From the NCBI GenBank assembly GCA_002722175.1, contig PBKU01000014.1, positions 97,187-161,186 on the forward strand: a stretch of 64,000 nt of DNA. The letters run 5' to 3'. Shown piece after piece: positions 1-9,684 of the stretch. The notes under the pieces were generated by a model. The model was given only the letters and a program-made list of their open reading frames with translations. It did not search any database and was not told the DNA's origin. How positions within the stretch are numbered: position 1 is the stretch's first letter; each line of letters starts with the position of its first letter. The position numbers were made by a program, and so were the translations under genes. Source of the DNA: Magnetovibrio sp. Lineage in GTDB: Bacteria; Pseudomonadota; Alphaproteobacteria; Rhodospirillales; Casp-alpha2.

Positions 1-648
1 TTCGGTGCTTCGGGGCAAAGCTGTGTTGCGGGTAGCCGGTTGTATATTCAGTCAGATATATATGAAACGGTAGTACAAGAGATCATTGACCGTGTAAAGA
101 GTATTCGAATAGGGCATCCTCTTGATCTTAGCACGGAAATGGGTCCTCTAGCGACTGAAGCCCAGTTAAAACGTTTCGAACAATATCTTGACCTTAATGA
201 AAGTAAGGGTGCGACGACGCTCTCGGGCGGGTCTCGACCGAAGGCCCTTGACAAGGGATGGTATGTTGAACCTACAGTCGTTGAGTGTAAGAAATCAGGC
301 GTACCCCTTCTGGAAGATGAGTTGTTTGCGCCAGTGCTTGCCGTTATGCCTTTTATTGATGAGGAAGACGCTGTCAAGAAAGCAAATGATAGTCGATTTG
401 GCCTTGCATCGGGTGTTTGGACCCAAGATATTGGTCGATCTCATCGCATGGCAAATCTACTAGATAGCGGGATAGTGTGGATAAATACGTATAGGGCTGC
501 TTCTCCCGTTGCCCCATTTGGAGGTTACTGGGATAGCGGTCAAGCTCGGGAAAGTGGTGCCGATTCCATTTTGGATTACAGCCAGACAAAAACGGTGTGG
601 GTTAAAACCTCGGATGCTCCAATGGAGGATCCATTTAAAGTTCAATAA
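1..648 (+). CDS. Aldehyde dehydrogenase, C-terminal part (cut by window start)
   Basis: NAD(P)-dependent oxidation of an aldehyde to a carboxylate. The frame is open from base 1, so the N-terminal cofactor domain lies outside. The visible part starts just before the catalytic cysteine in the family motif GQSCVAGSR. It continues through the ELFAPVLAV segment, which carries the conserved glutamate-Phe-Pro-type motif, and the C-terminal oligomerisation segment WINTYRAASPVAPFGG. The usual K-Q-S-G of the C-terminus is replaced by W-D-S-G (YWDSGQARESG). The substrate cannot be told from this end alone. The gene is followed after 3 bases by the stop of a convergent cupin gene, so it is the last gene of its transcript. 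Confidence 0.93.
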   Translation, partial: FGASGQSCVAGSRLYIQSDIYETVVQEIIDRVKSIRIGHPLDLSTEMGPLATEAQLKRFEQYLDLNESKGATTLSGGSRPKALDKGWYVEPTVVECKKSGVPLLEDELFAPVLAVMPFIDEEDAVKKANDSRFGLASGVWTQDIGRSHRMANLLDSGIVWINTYRAASPVAPFGGYWDSGQARESGADSILDYSQTKTVWVKTSDAPMEDPFKVQ

Positions 649-651
649 ATA

Positions 652-1404
652 TTATGGCTGTGCATTAAGAATAGCTAAATAAGTGAGCGGTGTTTTGGCG
701 GTAATAGTATACTGTTCCCCATCCGTTGTATGCCATAGAATGCCGGGCAGTAAAGTATACTCTTGTTTCGTGTGCGGTATTTTTAATATGCCTTCGCCGA
801 CTAAAATATAGATAGCAACATTTGGGGATTTATCGTTAACGACAATTTTTTCCCCAGCAGGGAGAAGCAGCTTTTTCAGTAATATGCTAAGATGATCCTC
901 TTTTCCCACAAGGGGAAAAATCAGCAATTGATTGGGCGGGCTAGTTGTTTCCTCAGAATTTCCATGTGTTTTTATGCGAGTTCTGACAAACATTTTTTTT
1001 GGGCCGATCGGGATATCACCTGTCTTTGGATACGAGCCATCTTCATCGTGAACTTCGTTACCATAGACAGCCGGACAGAAAATGCTGACTATTTTGAGAT
1101 TAGTATTAGCCTTTAACTGATGTCGGTCGCGAGGGCCAACGCAGTAGATAGTTCCATCGGTTAACCCCCAACATTGCCCGTTTTCTTTATCCGTAAGCTC
1201 CCCGGAGCCGGAAACTATATAGTTAGTTTCCCAGTGGTTTTTGTACCAAAGATCAAATGCTAAACTTTTATTTAATGTGACTATACTGAGAGAAAATCCT
1301 ATCCGATCAGCTTTTGTAAGCAAACGGACGGATGTAGCCTCTCCACTTGCTAGCATAACAGTCTTCCCATCATTTTTGTAGGATTGGTAGTTTCGGAGAG
1401 GCAT
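652..1404 (-). CDS. Ectoine-synthase-like protein fused to a second cupin domain
   Basis: Residues 1-130 or so match the EctC (ectoine synthase, cupin) pattern: WYKNHWETNYIVSGSGEL, then GTIYCVGPRDRHQL, then EVHDEDGSYP, all EctC hallmarks. EctC is normally about 130 residues; this protein is 250. The extra C-terminal half (about residues 150-250) reads as a second beta-rich cupin domain (LPAGEKIVVN, YILVGEGILKI, PGILWHTT). No ectA, ectB or ectD gene is seen nearby, so it need not make ectoine. It may act on a related amide or cyclisation substrate handled by the neighbouring aldehyde dehydrogenase. The ATG at 1404 is used. Fold assignment is firm; function is open. Confidence 0.8.
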   Translation of the reverse strand: MPLRNYQSYKNDGKTVMLASGEATSVRLLTKADRIGFSLSIVTLNKSLAFDLWYKNHWETNYIVSGSGELTDKENGQCWGLTDGTIYCVGPRDRHQLKANTNLKIVSIFCPAVYGNEVHDEDGSYPKTGDIPIGPKKMFVRTRIKTHGNSEETTSPPNQLLIFPLVGKEDHLSILLKKLLLPAGEKIVVNDKSPNVAIYILVGEGILKIPHTKQEYTLLPGILWHTTDGEQYTITAKTPLTYLAILNAQP

Positions 1405-1591: not shown

Positions 1592-3328
1592 ATGCTTTCG
1601 GTCGGGATATTTTTTGCAATGAGCGACTTTATGTACCATGGTTTTGAACAAGCACCTCAGTATAGTGGGTTTAGAAGTTCAAGTGAAATTATGACTGCTG
1701 AGAATTTGAGCGCCACTAAAGCGTACCGGCTAAGTTTTGCTCGTTCACTCATCCGCAAGATGACAACAGAAAACTGGCAGATTAACCTGGAGGAGCTAGA
1801 GGTTGATGCTGATGGGGTTGGTCTCGCGTTATACAAAATAGATACAAAAAACAACTGCCTCAGATTTTTAATTTTTTCTAATCAGGTCTCAGAAGAAGAA
1901 AGGACAGGTCGACTGTCGGAGTCAAAATTTGACGGGATGGCTGTTATTTTAGATGGCGTGTTTTTGAAGGATAAGGTTCAATTGGAGTATGCGGAGATGC
2001 TTAGGCGGTCAGAGGGGCAGACTTCTATGGACGCTATCGCATGGACACTTTCTACTCGTAGTTCTCGTTTTTTTTCCCATACGGTTGGTGCCCTCGCTGA
2101 AGGCAAGCAACCTAGATTTCTAGGTGAAGATATAGGTGCTGCTTATCTGCTGAGGAATAATGGGTGTTACGGGAATGGGCGCCATGGAACCCGGATGTGG
2201 GGTTCTCTAGAAAAAGATCACCCTCTTGCAAACACTTATTACCCGGAAATGTTTGCTTTATATATGTGGCGCCAGTTTGGGTTCGACCTTGTTGAGGAAA
2301 TGGCACGGCAGATAAATCCAATGGCTTCGCGTCTTCGCCCAGAAATAAAACGTTATCTTGGCATTGGGAATTCTACGGGTCAGGGGATGTCGACTTTTGT
2401 TGTAAAGTGGCCACGGTGGATTAATGCTTGGAACGTCGTTAGAGAAAAGGCAATAGCAACCGCGTCTGAACAACAAACTACCCATGAAGCTAAATTAAAT
2501 GCAAAGCTCCTCATTAAGAAATATATATCGAACTTAGAAGCACAAGGGCGAATTTCCTCCCCCCAGTTTTTGCCAGCACATAAGCTGGCTCTGGATTTAA
2601 AGAAGATAGATGGAAATTTGAACCTTGACGATAACAATCTGGGGACCTGGGTAGATACTATCTGTTGGTGCAGAAAAAACACACATCGGGAGGCGGTGGA
2701 ACAGTTTCATTCAATACTTACAGAGGTCCATGGAGATAGGATAGACCCACTGGAAGAATTGTTTGTGACAGAAATGGGAAAAACGGGGCGATCTGATCCC
2801 CAAATGACAATAGCCCAACTTAGAGAGCTTATTCATACATATTACAGCTGGGCTTTCAGTGATAAGTTATGTGGTCCTGATATGACGCATTATTTTTTTT
2901 ATCGTTCCGAGGAGCATGGCGAACAGCGACGAGGGCAGCGTAGAATCGATGCCGGTTCAGCGAACGAGACTTTTACAGGGGTGCCAACAGCTGTGCGCCA
3001 ACTGGACGAAAAATTAAAACAACAAAGCGACTCAAAATACATCGCAGTTTTTCTAGCGGAGTATCCGGAATACCGTTTTATAGTAGAGAGAATACAAACG
3101 TTTTGGAACGAGCCTTATGCTGAAATTAGAACTAGCGTTCCGGGATACGCTTTCCATCCGGCACACGTGATTCGCTTTGTGCTGGCTACCTTCGGCATGG
3201 AAACTGTCCATTTTTCTACAAAAAAATGGGTTCAGGGAACATTTTTTCAAGGGGCACCGATATCTGAACAACTCAACTCAAAATTGGATCCAGACTGGTT
3301 TATTCCCGAGGTTCCGGGTGGAAGGTAA
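1592..3328 (+). CDS. Conserved-looking protein of unknown function, 578 aa
   Basis: I do not recognise the family. It has no signal peptide or clear membrane segment, so it is probably cytoplasmic. Stretches that look conserved are rich in Gly, Arg and aromatic residues: LGEDIGAAYLLRNNGCYGNG around residue 190, GNSTGQGMSTF around 260, and GPDMTHYFFYRSEEHGEQRR around 430. The ATG at 1592 or the ATG at 1619 (starting MSDFMYHGF) could be the start; neither has a strong Shine-Dalgarno site. Its end overlaps the next gene by 11 bases, so the two are probably translationally coupled and work together. The neighbours (aldehyde dehydrogenase, EctC-like cupin, aldo/keto reductase, enolase-superfamily enzyme) suggest small-molecule metabolism. 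Function is unknown. Confidence 0.72.
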   Translation: MLSVGIFFAMSDFMYHGFEQAPQYSGFRSSSEIMTAENLSATKAYRLSFARSLIRKMTTENWQINLEELEVDADGVGLALYKIDTKNNCLRFLIFSNQVSEEERTGRLSESKFDGMAVILDGVFLKDKVQLEYAEMLRRSEGQTSMDAIAWTLSTRSSRFFSHTVGALAEGKQPRFLGEDIGAAYLLRNNGCYGNGRHGTRMWGSLEKDHPLANTYYPEMFALYMWRQFGFDLVEEMARQINPMASRLRPEIKRYLGIGNSTGQGMSTFVVKWPRWINAWNVVREKAIATASEQQTTHEAKLNAKLLIKKYISNLEAQGRISSPQFLPAHKLALDLKKIDGNLNLDDNNLGTWVDTICWCRKNTHREAVEQFHSILTEVHGDRIDPLEELFVTEMGKTGRSDPQMTIAQLRELIHTYYSWAFSDKLCGPDMTHYFFYRSEEHGEQRRGQRRIDAGSANETFTGVPTAVRQLDEKLKQQSDSKYIAVFLAEYPEYRFIVERIQTFWNEPYAEIRTSVPGYAFHPAHVIRFVLATFGMETVHFSTKKWVQGTFFQGAPISEQLNSKLDPDWFIPEVPGGR

Positions 3329-4133
3329 GGGTAGTTCATTTAAGAAGCTTTCCGAATGGGAGTTAAGAATCCACTCTCATTCGGCGTTTCGTGTTCTTGG
3401 CGTCCCCTTTGGTATTGCAGAAAGTGCATCCCGAATTTTTTGCATGGCCGAAATGGTAAGAGGGGGTGCAGTAGAATATTTGGTGAGAAGTCAGGAAAAA
3501 ATTTTTTCCTCAGCGGAAGACAGAGTTGCCATCAACAAAATAAGTGAAGAAATTTTCAGCGTTGACGCACATGACCAAACAATATTTACGGTTGGGGAGA
3601 GTATTCTTGATCTTGCAACACTGGGTGCATTGAAAAACGGATTAGGTGCGGTAGTTGTTGAAAACATCAATGCTCCAAAATTTTCAACCTGGATTTCTTG
3701 TGCAGCGTCAAAGAAAGGATTTTTCTCAGTTGTCAATTACCGATCAGGAGACGAAGGTGGCATGTATTCGATTTCCAGCCCGGTTACTCCAGGGGAGATA
3801 TATGAAGGGCCGGCAAAATCAATGGTTAAATTAACTGATACATTACAGGGTATTTTTGATGAAAATATTTTTAATACAGGTAAGGTAAATATGTTAACTT
3901 TGTTTTGCCTTAGCTTAGATAAGGGAAAGTCGATTGTGCATGATATTGAACAAAAAAATGAAGAAGGAAAATTTGTAAAGTTAGATGTTGATAATCGTTA
4001 TTCAAAGGCATATCGATATGGGATATTCCTAGAAACAAAGACGGCTGATAGTTTTCTTAATCTTGGGCGCTCAATTTGGTTGCCTACTTCAGATCGTTCG
4101 CGTAATCAGGGTTCAATAGGAATACAGGAATGA
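3318..4133 (+). CDS. Unknown protein coupled to the preceding gene (possibly DUF3726-like)
   Basis: 271 residues from a GTG at 3318, chosen because GAGG lies at 3308-3311, six bases upstream, and because the conserved-looking sequence starts right after it. The start overlaps the previous stop by 11 bases. The N-terminal segment (KLSEWELRIHSHSAF, then GVPFGIAESASR) recalls the start of DUF3726 proteins, which combine an Asn/Glu-type helix with a G-x-x-x-G-x-A-E motif. This is recall rather than a search and is uncertain. The rest is mixed alpha/beta with no clear motif or membrane segment. Together with the upstream 578-aa protein it forms a two-gene unit of unknown function. Confidence 0.65.
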   Translation: MEGKGSSFKKLSEWELRIHSHSAFRVLGVPFGIAESASRIFCMAEMVRGGAVEYLVRSQEKIFSSAEDRVAINKISEEIFSVDAHDQTIFTVGESILDLATLGALKNGLGAVVVENINAPKFSTWISCAASKKGFFSVVNYRSGDEGGMYSISSPVTPGEIYEGPAKSMVKLTDTLQGIFDENIFNTGKVNMLTLFCLSLDKGKSIVHDIEQKNEEGKFVKLDVDNRYSKAYRYGIFLETKTADSFLNLGRSIWLPTSDRSRNQGSIGIQE

Positions 4134-4244: not shown

Positions 4245-5210
4245 ATGGAATATGTCCGGTTTGGAAAATCTAACCTGAAAGTTTCAAAACTATCTTTTGG
4301 AGCGATGGGCTTCGGTTCAAAGAAATGGCGGGAATGGGTTCTCAATAGAAGCGAGAGTCGCCCTATCATAAAAAAAGCACTGGATAGTGGTATTAATTTT
4401 TTTGATACTTGCGACTTTTACTCTATTGGTGAGAGTGAAAAAATCCTTGGAAAGATTCTTCTTGATTGCGTGCCGCGAGACGAAGTCATTATTGCAACAA
4501 AGGTTGGCAACCCGATGGGTAGTTACCCAAATGCCGGGGGATTTTCGCGAAAGCATATCTTTGATGCTGTGGATGCGTCCTTAAAACGTTTGAATACAGA
4601 GTATATTGATCTTTATCAAACCCATATCTGGCAGCCAGATACGGAGTTGGAGGAGCTTGTCGATAGCTTCGGAGACTTAGTGAAGTCGGGAAAAGTACGA
4701 TATTTAGGGGTTACAACACTTCCTTCCTGGACTTTTTCAAAATTAATCCAGAATGCCGAAAGAAAATCTTCTTCTCCCTTTATTTCCATGCAATGTGAAT
4801 ATAACCTATGCCACCGTGAGGCTGAACGGGAGCTGATTCCTCTTTGCAGGGCCGAGGGGATAGCTTTAATACCTTTTAGCCCTTTGGCTCGTGGCTTCCT
4901 TTGTGCTGATAGGCGTTCCCACAAGAAAAAAACACTGAGAACAAAAAGTGATAGTTACACGCATCAATATTATTATAGGGATAGTGACTTCTTGGTTTTT
5001 GAAGCAGTTAAAGCAATTGCTGATAGGCGTAATCTTAATGCAGCACAGATTTCTTTGGCATGGGTTTTACAGCAATCGGGTGTTACATCGCCCATATTTG
5101 GTGCAACAAAGATAAAACATATTGAGGATGCAGTAAAAGCGCTCAGTGTACACTTTGATGATAGCGAAAGAGCTGCCTTGGAGGCTGCATATGAATCACG
5201 TTTCCCCTGA
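4245..5210 (+). CDS. Aldo/keto reductase
   Basis: NAD(P)H-dependent oxidoreductase of the (beta/alpha)8 aldo/keto reductase superfamily, 321 aa, the usual length. The catalytic tetrad is visible: D54 (NFFDTCDFYS), Y59, K86 (ATKVGNP) and H127 (YQTHIW). The cofactor-binding C-terminal region is present (IPFSPLARGFL and SPIFGATKIKHIED). Like the two unknown genes 110 bases upstream, it reads rightwards and may share their transcript. The physiological substrate, an aldehyde or ketose-type carbonyl, cannot be read from sequence. Confidence 0.9.
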   Translation: MEYVRFGKSNLKVSKLSFGAMGFGSKKWREWVLNRSESRPIIKKALDSGINFFDTCDFYSIGESEKILGKILLDCVPRDEVIIATKVGNPMGSYPNAGGFSRKHIFDAVDASLKRLNTEYIDLYQTHIWQPDTELEELVDSFGDLVKSGKVRYLGVTTLPSWTFSKLIQNAERKSSSPFISMQCEYNLCHREAERELIPLCRAEGIALIPFSPLARGFLCADRRSHKKKTLRTKSDSYTHQYYYRDSDFLVFEAVKAIADRRNLNAAQISLAWVLQQSGVTSPIFGATKIKHIEDAVKALSVHFDDSERAALEAAYESRFP

Positions 5211-5704: not shown

Positions 5705-6805
5705 ATGAAAATTATAAGCATTGAAACTTTTTCTAATCGCCATGTAGGATTCGTTCGGGTAACGAGTGAAGATGGGCACCAGGGGTGGGGACAGGTATCT
5801 ACCTATAACTCAGATATATCATCGCTTGTTTTGCATCGGCAAGTTGCCCCATATGCGTTGGGAGCAGATATTTTTCAACTAGATGATTTGGTGCAAATTA
5901 TAACCGAACGGGAACATAAGTTTCCTGGTTCTTATCTACGACGGGCAATCGGCGGTTTAGATACGGCTGTTTGGGATCTCCACGGAAAATTTTCTAGGAA
6001 AAGTGTCTGCGAATTATTAGGGGGAACGCCTCGACCTTTGCGTGTCTACGGATCAAGCATGCGAAGAGATATCAGACCAATAGATGAGGCTGCCCGTCTG
6101 GTCAAGCTTCGTGATCAATTTGGTTACGATGCGTTTAAAATAAGGGTTGGGAGCGAGTGCGGGCGGGATGTAGATGAATGGCCTGGCAGGACTGAAGAAA
6201 TTATTCCAACAATTCGAAAGACAATGGATGATAAAGTAACATTACTGGCCGATGCAAACAGCTGTTATTCGCCTAAACGTGCCATTGAAGTTGGTCTTTT
6301 GCTTCAAGATCATGGATTTTCCCACTTTGAAGAGCCCTGCCCTTATTGGGAACTGGAATGGACCAAGGAAGTGACCGATGCACTGGATATCGATGTAACA
6401 GGAGGAGAACAAGATTGTGATCTGGCAACGTGGTATCGGATAGCGCGAACAGGTATAGTCAATGTACTGCAGCCCGATATCTGCTATCTTGGGGGGCTTG
6501 GCCGGACACTAAAGGTTGCGGAATTAGCAAAAAAATATGGATTGCCTTGTACCCCGCATGCAGCCAATTTGTCACTCGTTACTATTTTTACCTTACATAT
6601 GATGGGGGCCATCGAATCTGCTGGTCCGTATGTTGAATTTTCAATTGAAGGGCTTGATTACTACCCTTGGCAGAATGATTTATATGAGCCCTTGCTAAAA
6701 GTCGTAGACGGTAAAGTCGAGGTTCCTGCGGAACCAGGTTGGGGGGTGCATATAAAACGAGATTGGTTGGAACGGGCACAATATCAAAAGAGCGAGCTTG
6801 ACTAG
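5705..6805 (+). CDS. Mandelate racemase/muconate lactonizing family dehydratase
   Basis: Enolase-superfamily enzyme of 366 aa, probably a sugar-acid (aldonate/galactonate-type) dehydratase. The N-terminal capping domain (about 1-115) is followed by a (beta/alpha)7-beta barrel. The second-strand base motif is K145-x-R147. Mg ligands are D183 (LLADANS), the glutamates of FEEP at 209-210, and E235 (GGEQD). D258 (QPDICYLGG) and H285 (TPHAAN) match the Asp-His dyad region of the MR subgroup. The aldehyde dehydrogenase and aldo/keto reductase upstream fit a sugar-acid or polyol catabolic locus, but that link is inference. Exact substrate unknown. Confidence 0.88.
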   Translation: MKIISIETFSNRHVGFVRVTSEDGHQGWGQVSTYNSDISSLVLHRQVAPYALGADIFQLDDLVQIITEREHKFPGSYLRRAIGGLDTAVWDLHGKFSRKSVCELLGGTPRPLRVYGSSMRRDIRPIDEAARLVKLRDQFGYDAFKIRVGSECGRDVDEWPGRTEEIIPTIRKTMDDKVTLLADANSCYSPKRAIEVGLLLQDHGFSHFEEPCPYWELEWTKEVTDALDIDVTGGEQDCDLATWYRIARTGIVNVLQPDICYLGGLGRTLKVAELAKKYGLPCTPHAANLSLVTIFTLHMMGAIESAGPYVEFSIEGLDYYPWQNDLYEPLLKVVDGKVEVPAEPGWGVHIKRDWLERAQYQKSELD

Positions 6806-6890
6806 ACAGATTGAGGCTTTAGCCGTGCTGATTGATACGTGTTATTTTGGTTAAAGGAGGCAGGAAATATAGACATGTGTCATATGTACA

Positions 6891-7637
6891 TCAGCACTCT
6901 TTATATTTTTTTATACTACATTCACGGGCAAGATACTTTGCCTTGGCTAGCGCCACAGGCTTTAACTCTTTTTCGAGCAAACGTTTATGCTTTCGGGCGT
7001 GATCGTATCCCAGTGTCCCAGAATTATGCCACCACATATAAGCACGGACCAAATCCTTATCGACCCCATGTCCCTTGCTATAAAGCCACCCTAGATTAAA
7101 TTGGGCGACTGGCCACCCTTGTTCCGATGATCGCTTATACCATTTGAATGCAGTTTGGTAATTCTGGGTCACACCATTCCCTTTATCGTATAACCATCCC
7201 AGATTGTTTTGGGAAACAGCATCTCCTTGCTCTGCTGCAAGTGAATACCAATGAACTGCAGTTTTATAATTTTTTTTAACCCCAAGCCCGTTGTCGTACA
7301 TCCATCCTATATTGTTTTGCGCGAGAGGATAATTTTGTTTCGCGGCGAGTGTATACCATTGCAGCGCAAGTTGATAATCTTGCTGGACTCCGCGCCCGAA
7401 GAAGAACATGGCCCCCAGACCATTTTGCGCTCTCATATTTCCATTGTTTGCGAGGGGTTGCCATATTTCGATGGCCTTCTTGTAATTTTTTTCGCGATAC
7501 GATTCTTGTCCGATGAAAAAATCTGAACCAAAACAGTTTTCTGTCCAAAGAAAAAGAAAGCATAGGATTCCTAGATAAGAAAAAAAGGAACCTGAAGATT
7601 TCAGTTTTTGAGTAGGGGATAAATGGGCAGGAAGCAT
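6891..7637 (-). CDS. Secreted Sel1-like repeat (TPR-type) protein
   Basis: At least four Sel1-like repeats of about 36 residues: AQNGLGAMFFFGRGV, AQNNIGWMYDNGLGV, SQNNLGWLYDKGNGV and AQFNLGWLYSKGHGV, each followed by the YxxAxxWYxxAAxQG helix. Sel1 repeats are protein-interaction solenoids. A hydrophobic stretch (SYLGILCFLFLW) near residue 20 suggests export. The protein ends in a two-cysteine tail (ECSIKKYKEC). The ATG at 7637 is preferred; an upstream in-frame GTG at 7682 would add 15 residues. A paralogue of the same architecture lies at 8968-9684 on the same strand, with a gap-type gene between them on the other strand. Partner unknown. Confidence 0.85.
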   Translation of the reverse strand: MLPAHLSPTQKLKSSGSFFSYLGILCFLFLWTENCFGSDFFIGQESYREKNYKKAIEIWQPLANNGNMRAQNGLGAMFFFGRGVQQDYQLALQWYTLAAKQNYPLAQNNIGWMYDNGLGVKKNYKTAVHWYSLAAEQGDAVSQNNLGWLYDKGNGVTQNYQTAFKWYKRSSEQGWPVAQFNLGWLYSKGHGVDKDLVRAYMWWHNSGTLGYDHARKHKRLLEKELKPVALAKAKYLARECSIKKYKEC

Positions 7638-7871
7638 TATTGTGTTCTCGTTTGTTGTAGGGTTAAGTTTTTTAAAAAACACATTAACTGGTAACCACCG
7701 TCTGTTTTAGGGTAATTCTTCATGTACGTATAGCGTAATTCTTTTAAATAGGTGGCCTGAAAGACATGTTATACTGAATCCAGTGATGCGCATGAACGTT
7801 ACCTAGTGTATATCTTTTTTTATTGGGTAGCTCTAGTTTTATATTTTGCATGTATCCTTAGGACTTGCGCG

Positions 7872-8942
7872 ATGGCAATACGAGTGGGAATTAACGGATT
7901 TGGGAGAATAGGTCGTACAGTAGTGCGGGCTGCCTGGGGACTTGACCCAAGATTACAAAGCCAATCATTAGAAGAACCAGGAGGTTTTTGGGGGAAAGGG
8001 AATTTTGAAATAGTACATATCAATGAATACAATGGAGGGGTTGAGTGTGCTTCCCATTTACTGAAATTTGATAGTTTGCATGGTATGTGGCCAGTTAGAA
8101 TTAAAACAGAAAGAGGTGGGCTTCGTATTGGCAGTAGAAAGGTGGGTTTTTCAGAGAAGAGGGAACCAAAAGAAGTTAACTGGGACTCGATTGGAGTCGA
8201 TATAGTTCTCGAGTGTTCAGGGAAGTTTAGGACCATGAAGACATTGGCTAAATATTTTGATTGTAACATAAAGAAAGTTATTGTCGCTGCTCCTGTTAAT
8301 GAGCCAGACGCATTAAATGTGGTTGTTGGAATAAATGATGATTTATATGATGTGCATCGACATAAAGTTATTACAGCAGCTAGCTGCACGACAAATTGTC
8401 TGGCGCCAGTTGTCAAGGTGATTCATGAAAATATAGGTATTTTACATGGGTCAGTAACAACAATACATGATGCAACGAATACCCAAGTAGTCCTTGATGC
8501 CCCGCAAAAAGACTTGCGAAGAGCACGTTCATCGCTGCTAAACTTAATCCCTACCTCAACTGGTTCAGCAACAGCCATAGGTTTTATTTTTAAAGACTTG
8601 AAGGGAAAACTTGATGGTATGGCTGTACGTGTTCCAGTCCTTAACGCATCATTGATTGACTGTGTTTTCGAAGTGTCCCGTGCAACCACTTCTGAAGAGG
8701 TTAATGGGTTGATAAAAGATGCTGCCGAAGGAACACTTTCAAAAATACTCGGTTACGAGGAATTACCTCTTGTTTCTACTGATTACTGTAATGATACCCG
8801 CTCTGCCATTGTTGATGGTCTCTCGACTATGGTTGTAGACAATACCCAGCTAAAAATATTAGCGTGGTACGATAATGAAGTGGGTTATGCGTGTCGTATG
8901 AGTGAACTTTTAGAGAAGGTGGCGGTAAGCATAAAGGACTAA
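7872..8942 (+). CDS. Glyceraldehyde-3-phosphate dehydrogenase, ArsJ-associated type
   Basis: 356 aa from the ATG at 7872 ([15 protein letters not shown]), which has AGGA at 7859-7862; a longer in-frame reading from 7806 lacks support. Catalytic C172 (ASCTTNC) and H199 ([10 protein letters not shown]) are present. Several stretches match the GAPDH subfamily found next to arsJ rather than glycolytic Gap: [36 protein letters not shown] and [16 protein letters not shown]. In that system the enzyme makes 1-arseno-3-phosphoglycerate from arsenate, which ArsJ exports. No arsJ or arsR is seen in this window, so a role in arsenate resistance is inference. A segment at about residues 27-43 looks longer than usual. 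Confidence 0.88.
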
Positions 8943-8967: not shown

Positions 8968-9684
8968 TTAGCATCGAATAAGATTCTTTCTTAAACATTC
9001 CTTAGTTAACTTTTTTGCTTCATTAACTTCATTGGGGGAAAGTTTTTTCTCAATTTCTTTCTTAAGTTTTTCTGCTTTTGAATCACCTCTAGAAGCAGCT
9101 ATGCTTGTCCACATATAGGCTCGTACCGTATCTCGGATAATACCTGCGCCCTTCATCTTCATGATAGAAAGATTAATCTGAGCGATAACATTTCCTTGTT
9201 CTGCGGCAAGTTTAAACCACTTATGCGCAAGCTTATAATCCTTTGGAACTCCATCGCCATTTTCATACATTAAGCCTAAATCATTTTGGGCATTTGGATC
9301 TCCCTTCTCAGCTGCTAATAGATACCACTTTAATGCAGTTTTATAATTCAGAGAAACTGGTCGACCTTGATAATACATGGAGCCGAGATTAAATTGAGCT
9401 TTAGTGTTACCTTTTTCGGCAGCTTTTTTATACCATTTGAAGGCTGTTTTATAATTTTGGGTAACACCTTTGCCATCTCTATACATCCAGCCAAGATTAT
9501 GTTGAGCCTTTACATTTCCTTTTTCAGCAAGCGGCTTCCATTCTCTAAACGCAGTAGCATAATCTTTATTTCTAAAGGCTGTTAACCCCTTTTTATAATC
9601 AGCAGAAAAGGCGCTATTTTGCGAGAAAATAAAAATGCTAATGCCAAGGAGTCCTAAATAAGATATCGTAAATATTTTATACAT
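8968..9684 (-). CDS. Secreted Sel1-like repeat (TPR-type) protein, paralogue
   Basis: 238 aa with a signal peptide (MYKIFTISYLGLLGISIFIF, cleavage probably after SAFSA), then a TPR-like helix pair (YKKGLTAFRNKDYATAFREW) and four to five Sel1 repeats (AQHNLGWMYRDGKGV, AQFNLGSMYYQGRPV, AQNDLGLMYENGDGV). It ends in a two-cysteine tail (ECLRKNLIRC), like the paralogue at 6891-7637. Both also share the VRAYMW motif before the last helix. Probably periplasmic scaffolding. Its 3' end faces the gap-type gene, 25 bases away. Confidence 0.88.
   Translation of the reverse strand: MYKIFTISYLGLLGISIFIFSQNSAFSADYKKGLTAFRNKDYATAFREWKPLAEKGNVKAQHNLGWMYRDGKGVTQNYKTAFKWYKKAAEKGNTKAQFNLGSMYYQGRPVSLNYKTALKWYLLAAEKGDPNAQNDLGLMYENGDGVPKDYKLAHKWFKLAAEQGNVIAQINLSIMKMKGAGIIRDTVRAYMWTSIAASRGDSKAEKLKKEIEKKLSPNEVNEAKKLTKECLRKNLIRC

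Follow-up and report, generated by a model that had tools for sequence, protein, structure and literature searches.

In the TgnA/TgnB pathway of trigonelline catabolism, ring opening is followed by an aldehyde dehydrogenase (ALDH) and by a hydrolase for the N-formyl product. For homarine, a six-gene operon, homABCDER, with N-methylglutamate as its product, has reportedly been described by Ferrer-Gonzalez et al. in Nat Microbiol in 2026, and is said to occur in Rhodobacterales, SAR11 and SAR116. A literature search on homarine found no paper on the operon itself beyond its reference. Measurements on surface-ocean particles put homarine with their most abundant small metabolites in a report that, where it treats TgnA/TgnB, has this enzyme open the trigonelline ring and judges it unlikely to act on homarine (PMC8269262); a correction of those homarine concentrations exists (PMC10134881). 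Other reports assign Mgd a role in homarine catabolism (PMC13390433) and describe quick drawdown of homarine by R. pomeroyi (PMC12817926); growth of R. pomeroyi on homarine was poorer than on trigonelline in a separate study. How bacteria open the homarine ring is not explained by the trigonelline enzyme. Here we describe two overlapping genes, A and B, in a 64,000-nucleotide stretch of Magnetovibrio sp. DNA (GenBank assembly GCA_002722175.1, contig PBKU01000014.1, positions 97,187 to 161,186; hereafter the window). They belong to a conserved family of gene pairs for which opening of N-heterocyclic rings is our best guess. Their features, in window coordinates, are as follows.

1592-3328, forward strand: gene A, proposed large subunit, 578 amino acids, or 569 from an in-frame ATG at 1619
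2360-2377, forward strand: motif GIGNST of A, residues 257-262, a strand-to-helix turn in the predicted model
2897-2935, forward strand: motif FYRSEEHGEQRRG of A, residues 436-448, pattern [WF]YxSxxxxExRxG
3308-3311, forward strand: GAGG, putative ribosome-binding site of B, six bases ahead of its GTG
3318-3328, forward strand: 11-base overlap of A and B
3318-4133, forward strand: gene B, proposed small subunit, 271 amino acids, GTG start, predicted DUF3726-related shortened Ldh_2 fold without the Ldh_2 active-site motifs

A and B form a well-supported, conserved two-gene unit. Among 101 A loci (80 from a genome collection, 13 from plasmids and eight from other genomes, window included), B adjoins A downstream in 100 (profile, E≤1e-3); the sole exception, L061, is a sequence that stops 41 bases after A. 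The B profile was built from 54 of these loci, for which the similarity is partly circular but the position is not. Across 94 loci with relatives of the pair, the two genes most often overlap by 4 bases (52 loci) and next by 1 base (12 loci); the 11 bases shared in the window suggest translational coupling of the two genes. A natural fusion occurs on a plasmid of Mesorhizobium 131-2-1 (L023:7956-10400), where A and B share one reading frame annotated as one protein. In 297 genomes of the window's order, A is present in 12, DUF3726 in 11 and both in 10, with adjacency in all 10 (Fisher p 6e-16, a value that ignores kinship between genomes that are not independent). Of the two genomes with A and no DUF3726, one is that of the window, whose B has diverged beyond the reach of the Pfam model; in the other, G002, the contig ends within A. 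DUF3726 without A occurs in G038 only, as a 23.6-bit match in a 409-amino-acid frame.

These data bear on an earlier note made from the window's letters. The genes of 578 and 271 amino acids that it described, overlapping by 11 bases and with the second starting at GTG under its own GAGG, are confirmed by the coordinates, and the co-occurrence that it proposed to check is borne out in the loci and genomes just counted. Of its suggestion of an undescribed two-subunit enzyme, the constant two-gene unit holds, helped by the fusion; that the pair makes up a two-subunit enzyme is likely, and 'undescribed' has become uncertain with the homarine-like loci presented below. Its label 'DUF3726-like' fits the family, since PF12525 (DUF3726) matches 41 of 55 aligned B proteins at E≤0.01, but not the window's own B, which has no match at E≤1, nor has any other protein of its genome.

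The family is widespread and divergent, and the pair mostly sits among genes for the breakdown of nutrients. As a query, the window's A finds relatives in nine of 48 genomes of its own family and in 168 plasmid records, all at <60% identity and mainly from Sinorhizobium and Phaeobacter, with Natrinema, an archaeon, also represented; at least 80% of the query is covered in 165 of them. A genome-collection scan with A as a single sequence confirmed no relative, and B as a single sequence had its own genome as the one match among 297. Because such searches are too weak, profiles built with relatives were needed. A profile scan of the collection then gave at least 570 A relatives among 590 candidate stretches, of which the best 80 were kept. 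In the A alignment (61 rows, window row included), identity to the window's A is 27-33%, and the corresponding profile scores it at 627 bits; in the B alignment (55 rows, proteins of 161-271 amino acids), identity to the window's B is 12-21%. The window's pair is a divergent member of the A-B family. L033 is titled Pelagibacterales; the single-cell loci L073, L079 and others, titled Alphaproteobacteria only, resemble SAR11 to our eye.

The B protein is best understood as a reduced relative of Ldh_2 dehydrogenases. PF02615 (Ldh_2) matches 23 of the 55 aligned B proteins at E≤0.01 and the window's B only weakly (18 bits, under the curated cut-off of 38.8), and this B is detected at E 2e-16 by a profile made from the 54 relatives, window row left out. 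Searched against the PDB, the B profile picks up YiaK (E 5e-6); it also aligns with a true Ldh_2 profile across the first 130 columns (E 1e-6). The predicted structure of B (mean predicted local distance difference test, pLDDT, 83.8; predicted template modelling score, pTM, 0.83) superposes on YiaK (1nxu) with Z 20.2 and a root mean square deviation (rmsd) of 4.0 over 228 aligned residues; the top 15 listed structure matches all belong to the Ldh_2 family (Z 16.3 to 20.2), and the next entry falls to 4.8. On this model, B has an Ldh_2 fold. The motifs SHG, GTNP and GxKG, which in Ldh_2 proteins have roles in catalysis and cofactor binding, occur in one, none and none of the 55 B proteins, versus seven of seven each in the true Ldh_2 proteins of the clusters, and 37 of the 55 end in an SR..GAG tail. 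An NADH-binding two-subunit dehydrogenase was dropped as the leading idea because these motifs are missing from B. The match to a well-studied family that the earlier note had set against its proposal is found by halves, at the level of fold but without the motifs of that family. A literature search found no paper naming DUF3726. The B frame extends upstream to a TTG at 3177 (318 amino acids) in a mechanical open reading frame listing; the later GTG is preferred since the alignment with relatives fits it.

A has no convincing match among classified families. It has no hit in Pfam or NCBIfam at E≤1, with no recognisable oxygenase or flavin-reductase domain in the Pfam search, and its single match to PDB sequences (E 0.58) is taken as chance. 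Four A relatives have no NCBIfam model at E≤0.01, and the Pfam matches of the relatives are scattered, with at most three of 61 members for any one family, and are also taken as chance. V-ATPase subunit C was rejected as a relative: the A profile matches it at E 0.013-0.053 through helices alone, again probably by chance. Profile searches, as the earlier note had advised, leave A outside the Pfam and NCBIfam families and place B near Ldh_2, weakly, among relatives that are mostly DUF3726. The predicted structure of A has a mean pLDDT of 88.1 and a pTM of 0.90. Against solved folds, the best Foldseek match has E 1.2 and a second structure comparison reaches Z 5.9 (rmsd 12.9, 76 residues aligned), mostly in helices 265-384; this absence of a convincing match does not prove a new fold. 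The second in-frame ATG found by open reading frame analysis, at 1619, is a plausible true start, because matches of the relatives start near residues 20-27 and the model has pLDDT <50 over residues 1-19.

Some positions of A are strictly conserved. Y81, R107, D114, Y185, E370, W420, Y437, E444 and R446, plus others, are invariant in the 61-row alignment. The GIGNST turn, a possible cofactor or carboxylate site, conforms to GxGNS/GT in 61 of 61 rows, a conservation partly by construction, since a pattern for this very motif had been used to retrieve the 80 genome loci; the motif is also invariant in a separate 14-row alignment, in which 13 rows came from plasmids via tblastn. The pattern [WF]YxSxxxxExRxG is likewise present in all 61 rows and played no part in fetching loci.

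Two trees of A, one of 97 rows and a careful one of 21 rows, show three main lines, here types I, II and III; the Natrinema protein (L011) falls outside them in the 97-row tree. The window's A is sister to type III proteins from four loci (L016, L026, L027 and L029), with support of 98 in the larger tree and 99/98 in the smaller, on long branches, and lies outside the type I clade in both. Partner genes were counted in loci flanked by 6 kb or more on each side (51 of 79 for type I, 14 of 16 for type II and three of four for type III), a partner being scored when tblastn placed its seed within 8 kb at E≤1e-10. The usual type I layout is LysR, ALDH, M19 hydrolase, A, B and a betaine-type transporter, with M19 in 49 of the 51 loci, ALDH and LysR in 43 each and BCCT, ProX or PotD in 42; rarer partners are SoxA-like (10), SoxB-like (nine), Ldh_2 (eight), Rieske-like (four) and MR/MLE (two) genes. 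Type II loci read IclR, A, B, M19 and a polyamine-type ABC transporter, with M19 and IclR in all 14, PotD in 13, a class III aminotransferase in nine and ALDH in five. M19 is the recurring partner of types I and II (63 of 65 loci). Type III, the clade of the window, comes with ALDH (three of three) and an aldo/keto reductase, and with no M19 (0 of three). The type I ALDH has alpha-ketoglutaric semialdehyde dehydrogenase as its best NCBIfam model (489 bits, under the cut-off of 770). PcaD- and PcaC-like proteins, under curated cut-offs, are encoded in the type III loci L016 and L027.

Several loci carry further genes beside the pair. A-B adjoins SoxA- and SoxB-like genes in single-cell or metagenome-assembled loci (L073, L079, L082, L085, L088, L095 and L098); in L073 and L079, proteins of 391 and <200 amino acids sit in between. 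The SoxA/SoxB-like copies of L086 score under the sarcosine oxidase cut-offs. In Phaeobacter inhibens (L021:10864-16304), type I genes adjoin genes annotated as dimethylsulfoniopropionate (DMSP) demethylase and DmdD.

It is tempting to propose that A and B are obligate subunits of one cytosolic enzyme that opens N-heterocycles and whose product is finished by the partner enzymes, a reading to which we give a probability of about 0.4. It is reached by elimination: ring opening is the sole step left without an enzyme, and A-B are the sole genes left without a function. The active site would lie on A, and B would be a structural partner, a cut-down Ldh_2 protein stripped of its dehydrogenase motifs. 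The substrate would be a pyridinium-like, betaine-like N-heteroaromatic ring, opened probably with O2 to an N-acyl (N-formyl) semialdehyde. The ALDH of type I clusters would oxidise the ring-opened aldehyde, the M19 hydrolase would then remove the acyl group and, where present, a DpkA-like imine reductase would form an N-methyl amino acid. With homarine as the substrate, this amino acid would be N-methylglutamate, which N-methylglutamate dehydrogenase could convert to glutamate; roughly one in five long-flank type I loci has SoxA/SoxB-like genes close to A-B. The arithmetic would be C7H7NO2 plus O2 and two reducing equivalents to C7H9NO4, followed by oxidation, loss of formate and reduction to C6H11NO4, which is N-methylglutamate. 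In the window, ALDH would oxidise the ring-opened semialdehyde, a formamidase-like alpha/beta hydrolase might take the part of M19 and the aldo/keto reductase would be an extra step. Enzyme activity, ring opening, use of O2, homarine as a substrate and the roles of the subunits are all what we infer. The occurrence of types II and III in rhizobia, Paraburkholderia, Azospirillum and the window's genome would point to further substrates. Bolder still, and doubtful, is the idea that A-B represents a novel oxygenase class for ring opening, in which the catalytic subunit has a fold unseen in solved structures and the partner derives from a dead dehydrogenase, the class having split into at least three lines for different N-heterocycles with the window in the third.

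The neighbours of the pair are those that the earlier note listed.

1-648, forward strand: ALDH, C-terminal part, type III partner; the gene starts before the window (G000:C14:96356)
652-1404, reverse strand: double cupin of the ectoine synthase family, 250 amino acids, divergent from A
4245-5210, forward strand: aldo/keto reductase, common to four type III loci at 51-60% identity
5705-6805, forward strand: MR/MLE enolase-superfamily protein, also placed 571 bases after the start of the region of B's nearest neighbour pair

Of these four, only the ALDH and the aldo/keto reductase are shared with type III loci. The reductase is 60, 57, 56 and 51% identical to its counterparts in L026, L027, L016 and L029, with one other locus at 30%, and the ALDH is 48, 46 and 40% identical to those of L027, L026 and L016; its best PDB match is gamma-hydroxymuconic semialdehyde dehydrogenase. 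At 138.7 bits, the double cupin scores above the cut-off of the NCBIfam ectoine synthase subfamily (128 bits) and has no relative in the loci compared around A-B. In order towards A, the contig upstream of the window (G000:C14) carries a peptide-type transporter set (substrate-binding protein, two permeases and ATPase), a PhyH protein and an unassigned protein, followed by a first alpha/beta hydrolase, the M24 and HD proteins, the second alpha/beta hydrolase and the start of ALDH. This second hydrolase, outside the window, ends two bases before ALDH, carries HGGYW, which we take to be a formamidase-type motif, and matches kynurenine formamidase at E 2e-14. Together with the PcaD- and PcaC-like proteins of L016 and L027, the ALDH and this hydrolase are hints that fit ring fission without fixing a substrate. 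The peptide-type transporter lies at least 8 kb upstream of A, with 26-42% identity to that of L016; an operon shared with A-B in the window was not supported, as other genes lie between. Elsewhere in the window's genome, Ldh_2 proteins gave four matches and SoxA-like proteins 11. PF06684, an amino-acid-synthesis family and type III neighbour, gave no match in this genome in a search whose control failed too.

Other observations concern genes further out. The M24 protein outside the window (G000:C14:93462-94682; L106:5463-6683, reverse strand) scores 369 bits with the DMSP lyase DddP model, under its cut-off of 600. The PhyH oxygenase and the HD protein (L106:2343-3170 and 6717-7295, reverse strand), also outside the window and four genes apart, resemble the HD oxygenases of phosphonate degradation, both under the cut-offs of those models. 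In the window, 6891-7682 and 8968-9684 (reverse strand) encode two similar proteins with, by eye, the look of Sel1-type repeats, and the translation of the gene between them (7806-8942) reads like glyceraldehyde-3-phosphate dehydrogenase.

Several findings weigh against ring opening by A-B. In A, no cysteine column reaches 80% conservation, and the columns with at least 80% histidine hold Glu and Trp in the window's protein, leaving no familiar metal site. Among the loci, the ALDH of the window is closest to that of a type I locus (L040, 50%), and its best PDB matches are nearly tied and include betaine-aldehyde dehydrogenases. For the hydrolase beside it, Lipase 1 (2e-33) and an esterase both outrank kynurenine formamidase, which is only the third match, and hormone-sensitive lipase comes first among the NCBIfam models, under cut-off. 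LysR and M19 are absent beside the window's pair, and M19 had no match in its genome in a search run without a positive control. In type I loci, Ldh_2 is found in just eight of 51 and has L-sulfolactate dehydrogenase, under cut-off, as its best NCBIfam model, and the Rieske-like gene near four of 51 could mean that the first step lies elsewhere.

Three other readings were weighed. A-B might cleave the C-N bond of aliphatic betaines or amines, as a demethylase, lyase or hydrolase, with no ring to open. Such a substrate is supported by BCCT, ProX or PotD in the neighbourhood of 42 of 51 loci of type I and 13 of 14 of type II, by the class III aminotransferase near nine of 14 type II loci and by the sarcosine oxidase cluster adjoining L018 and L022; yet A belongs to no recognised Rieske, flavin or metal-site family, and the ring-fission flavour of the PcaC- and PcaD-like partners would be left unexplained. 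We rate this reading as rather unlikely. Less probable again is a sugar-acid or compatible-solute pathway, the context considered in the earlier note, in which A-B would act as dehydratase, lyase or isomerase alongside the MR/MLE protein, the cupin, ALDH and the aldo/keto reductase. These neighbours are present in the window, and genes of the DHDPS family lie upstream of it (G000:C14:78993-79910) and near A-B in Natrinema, but this context is not general: MR/MLE is found near A-B in only two of 51 type I, none of 14 type II and none of three type III loci, the cupin matched no locus, and of the four neighbours ALDH and the reductase alone are shared within type III.

The division of labour in the pair could also be otherwise, with A as the whole enzyme and B as a chaperone or assembly factor. 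Loss of the Ldh_2 motifs and the fast evolution of B (12-21% identity, against 27-33% for A) would suit such a helper, but the constant one-to-one neighbourhood and the fusion favour a stoichiometric partner, and we regard a non-subunit role for B as improbable. Ring opening by an A-B enzyme remains our best guess, and if A-B is the opener, a large-subunit family without a Pfam or NCBIfam model becomes testable.

Compared with known systems, B is like the Ldh_2 family (PF02615: malate/lactate, YiaK and DpkA-type dehydrogenases) in fold and in distant sequence similarity, and differs from it in being shorter and in lacking SHG, GTNP and GxKG; it stands closer to DUF3726 as a family than in the window's own protein. 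Type I loci appear to resemble the homarine operon reported in 2026, a match that follows chemical logic: they hold up to six matching gene kinds (regulator, ALDH, M19, A, B and Ldh_2). The window differs from that operon, with no LysR or M19 at the pair, another clade and an aldo/keto reductase instead. From TgnA/TgnB, A and B differ in having no match to a Pfam family of that kind, but the proposed A-B route would follow the same logic of ring opening, ALDH and hydrolase.

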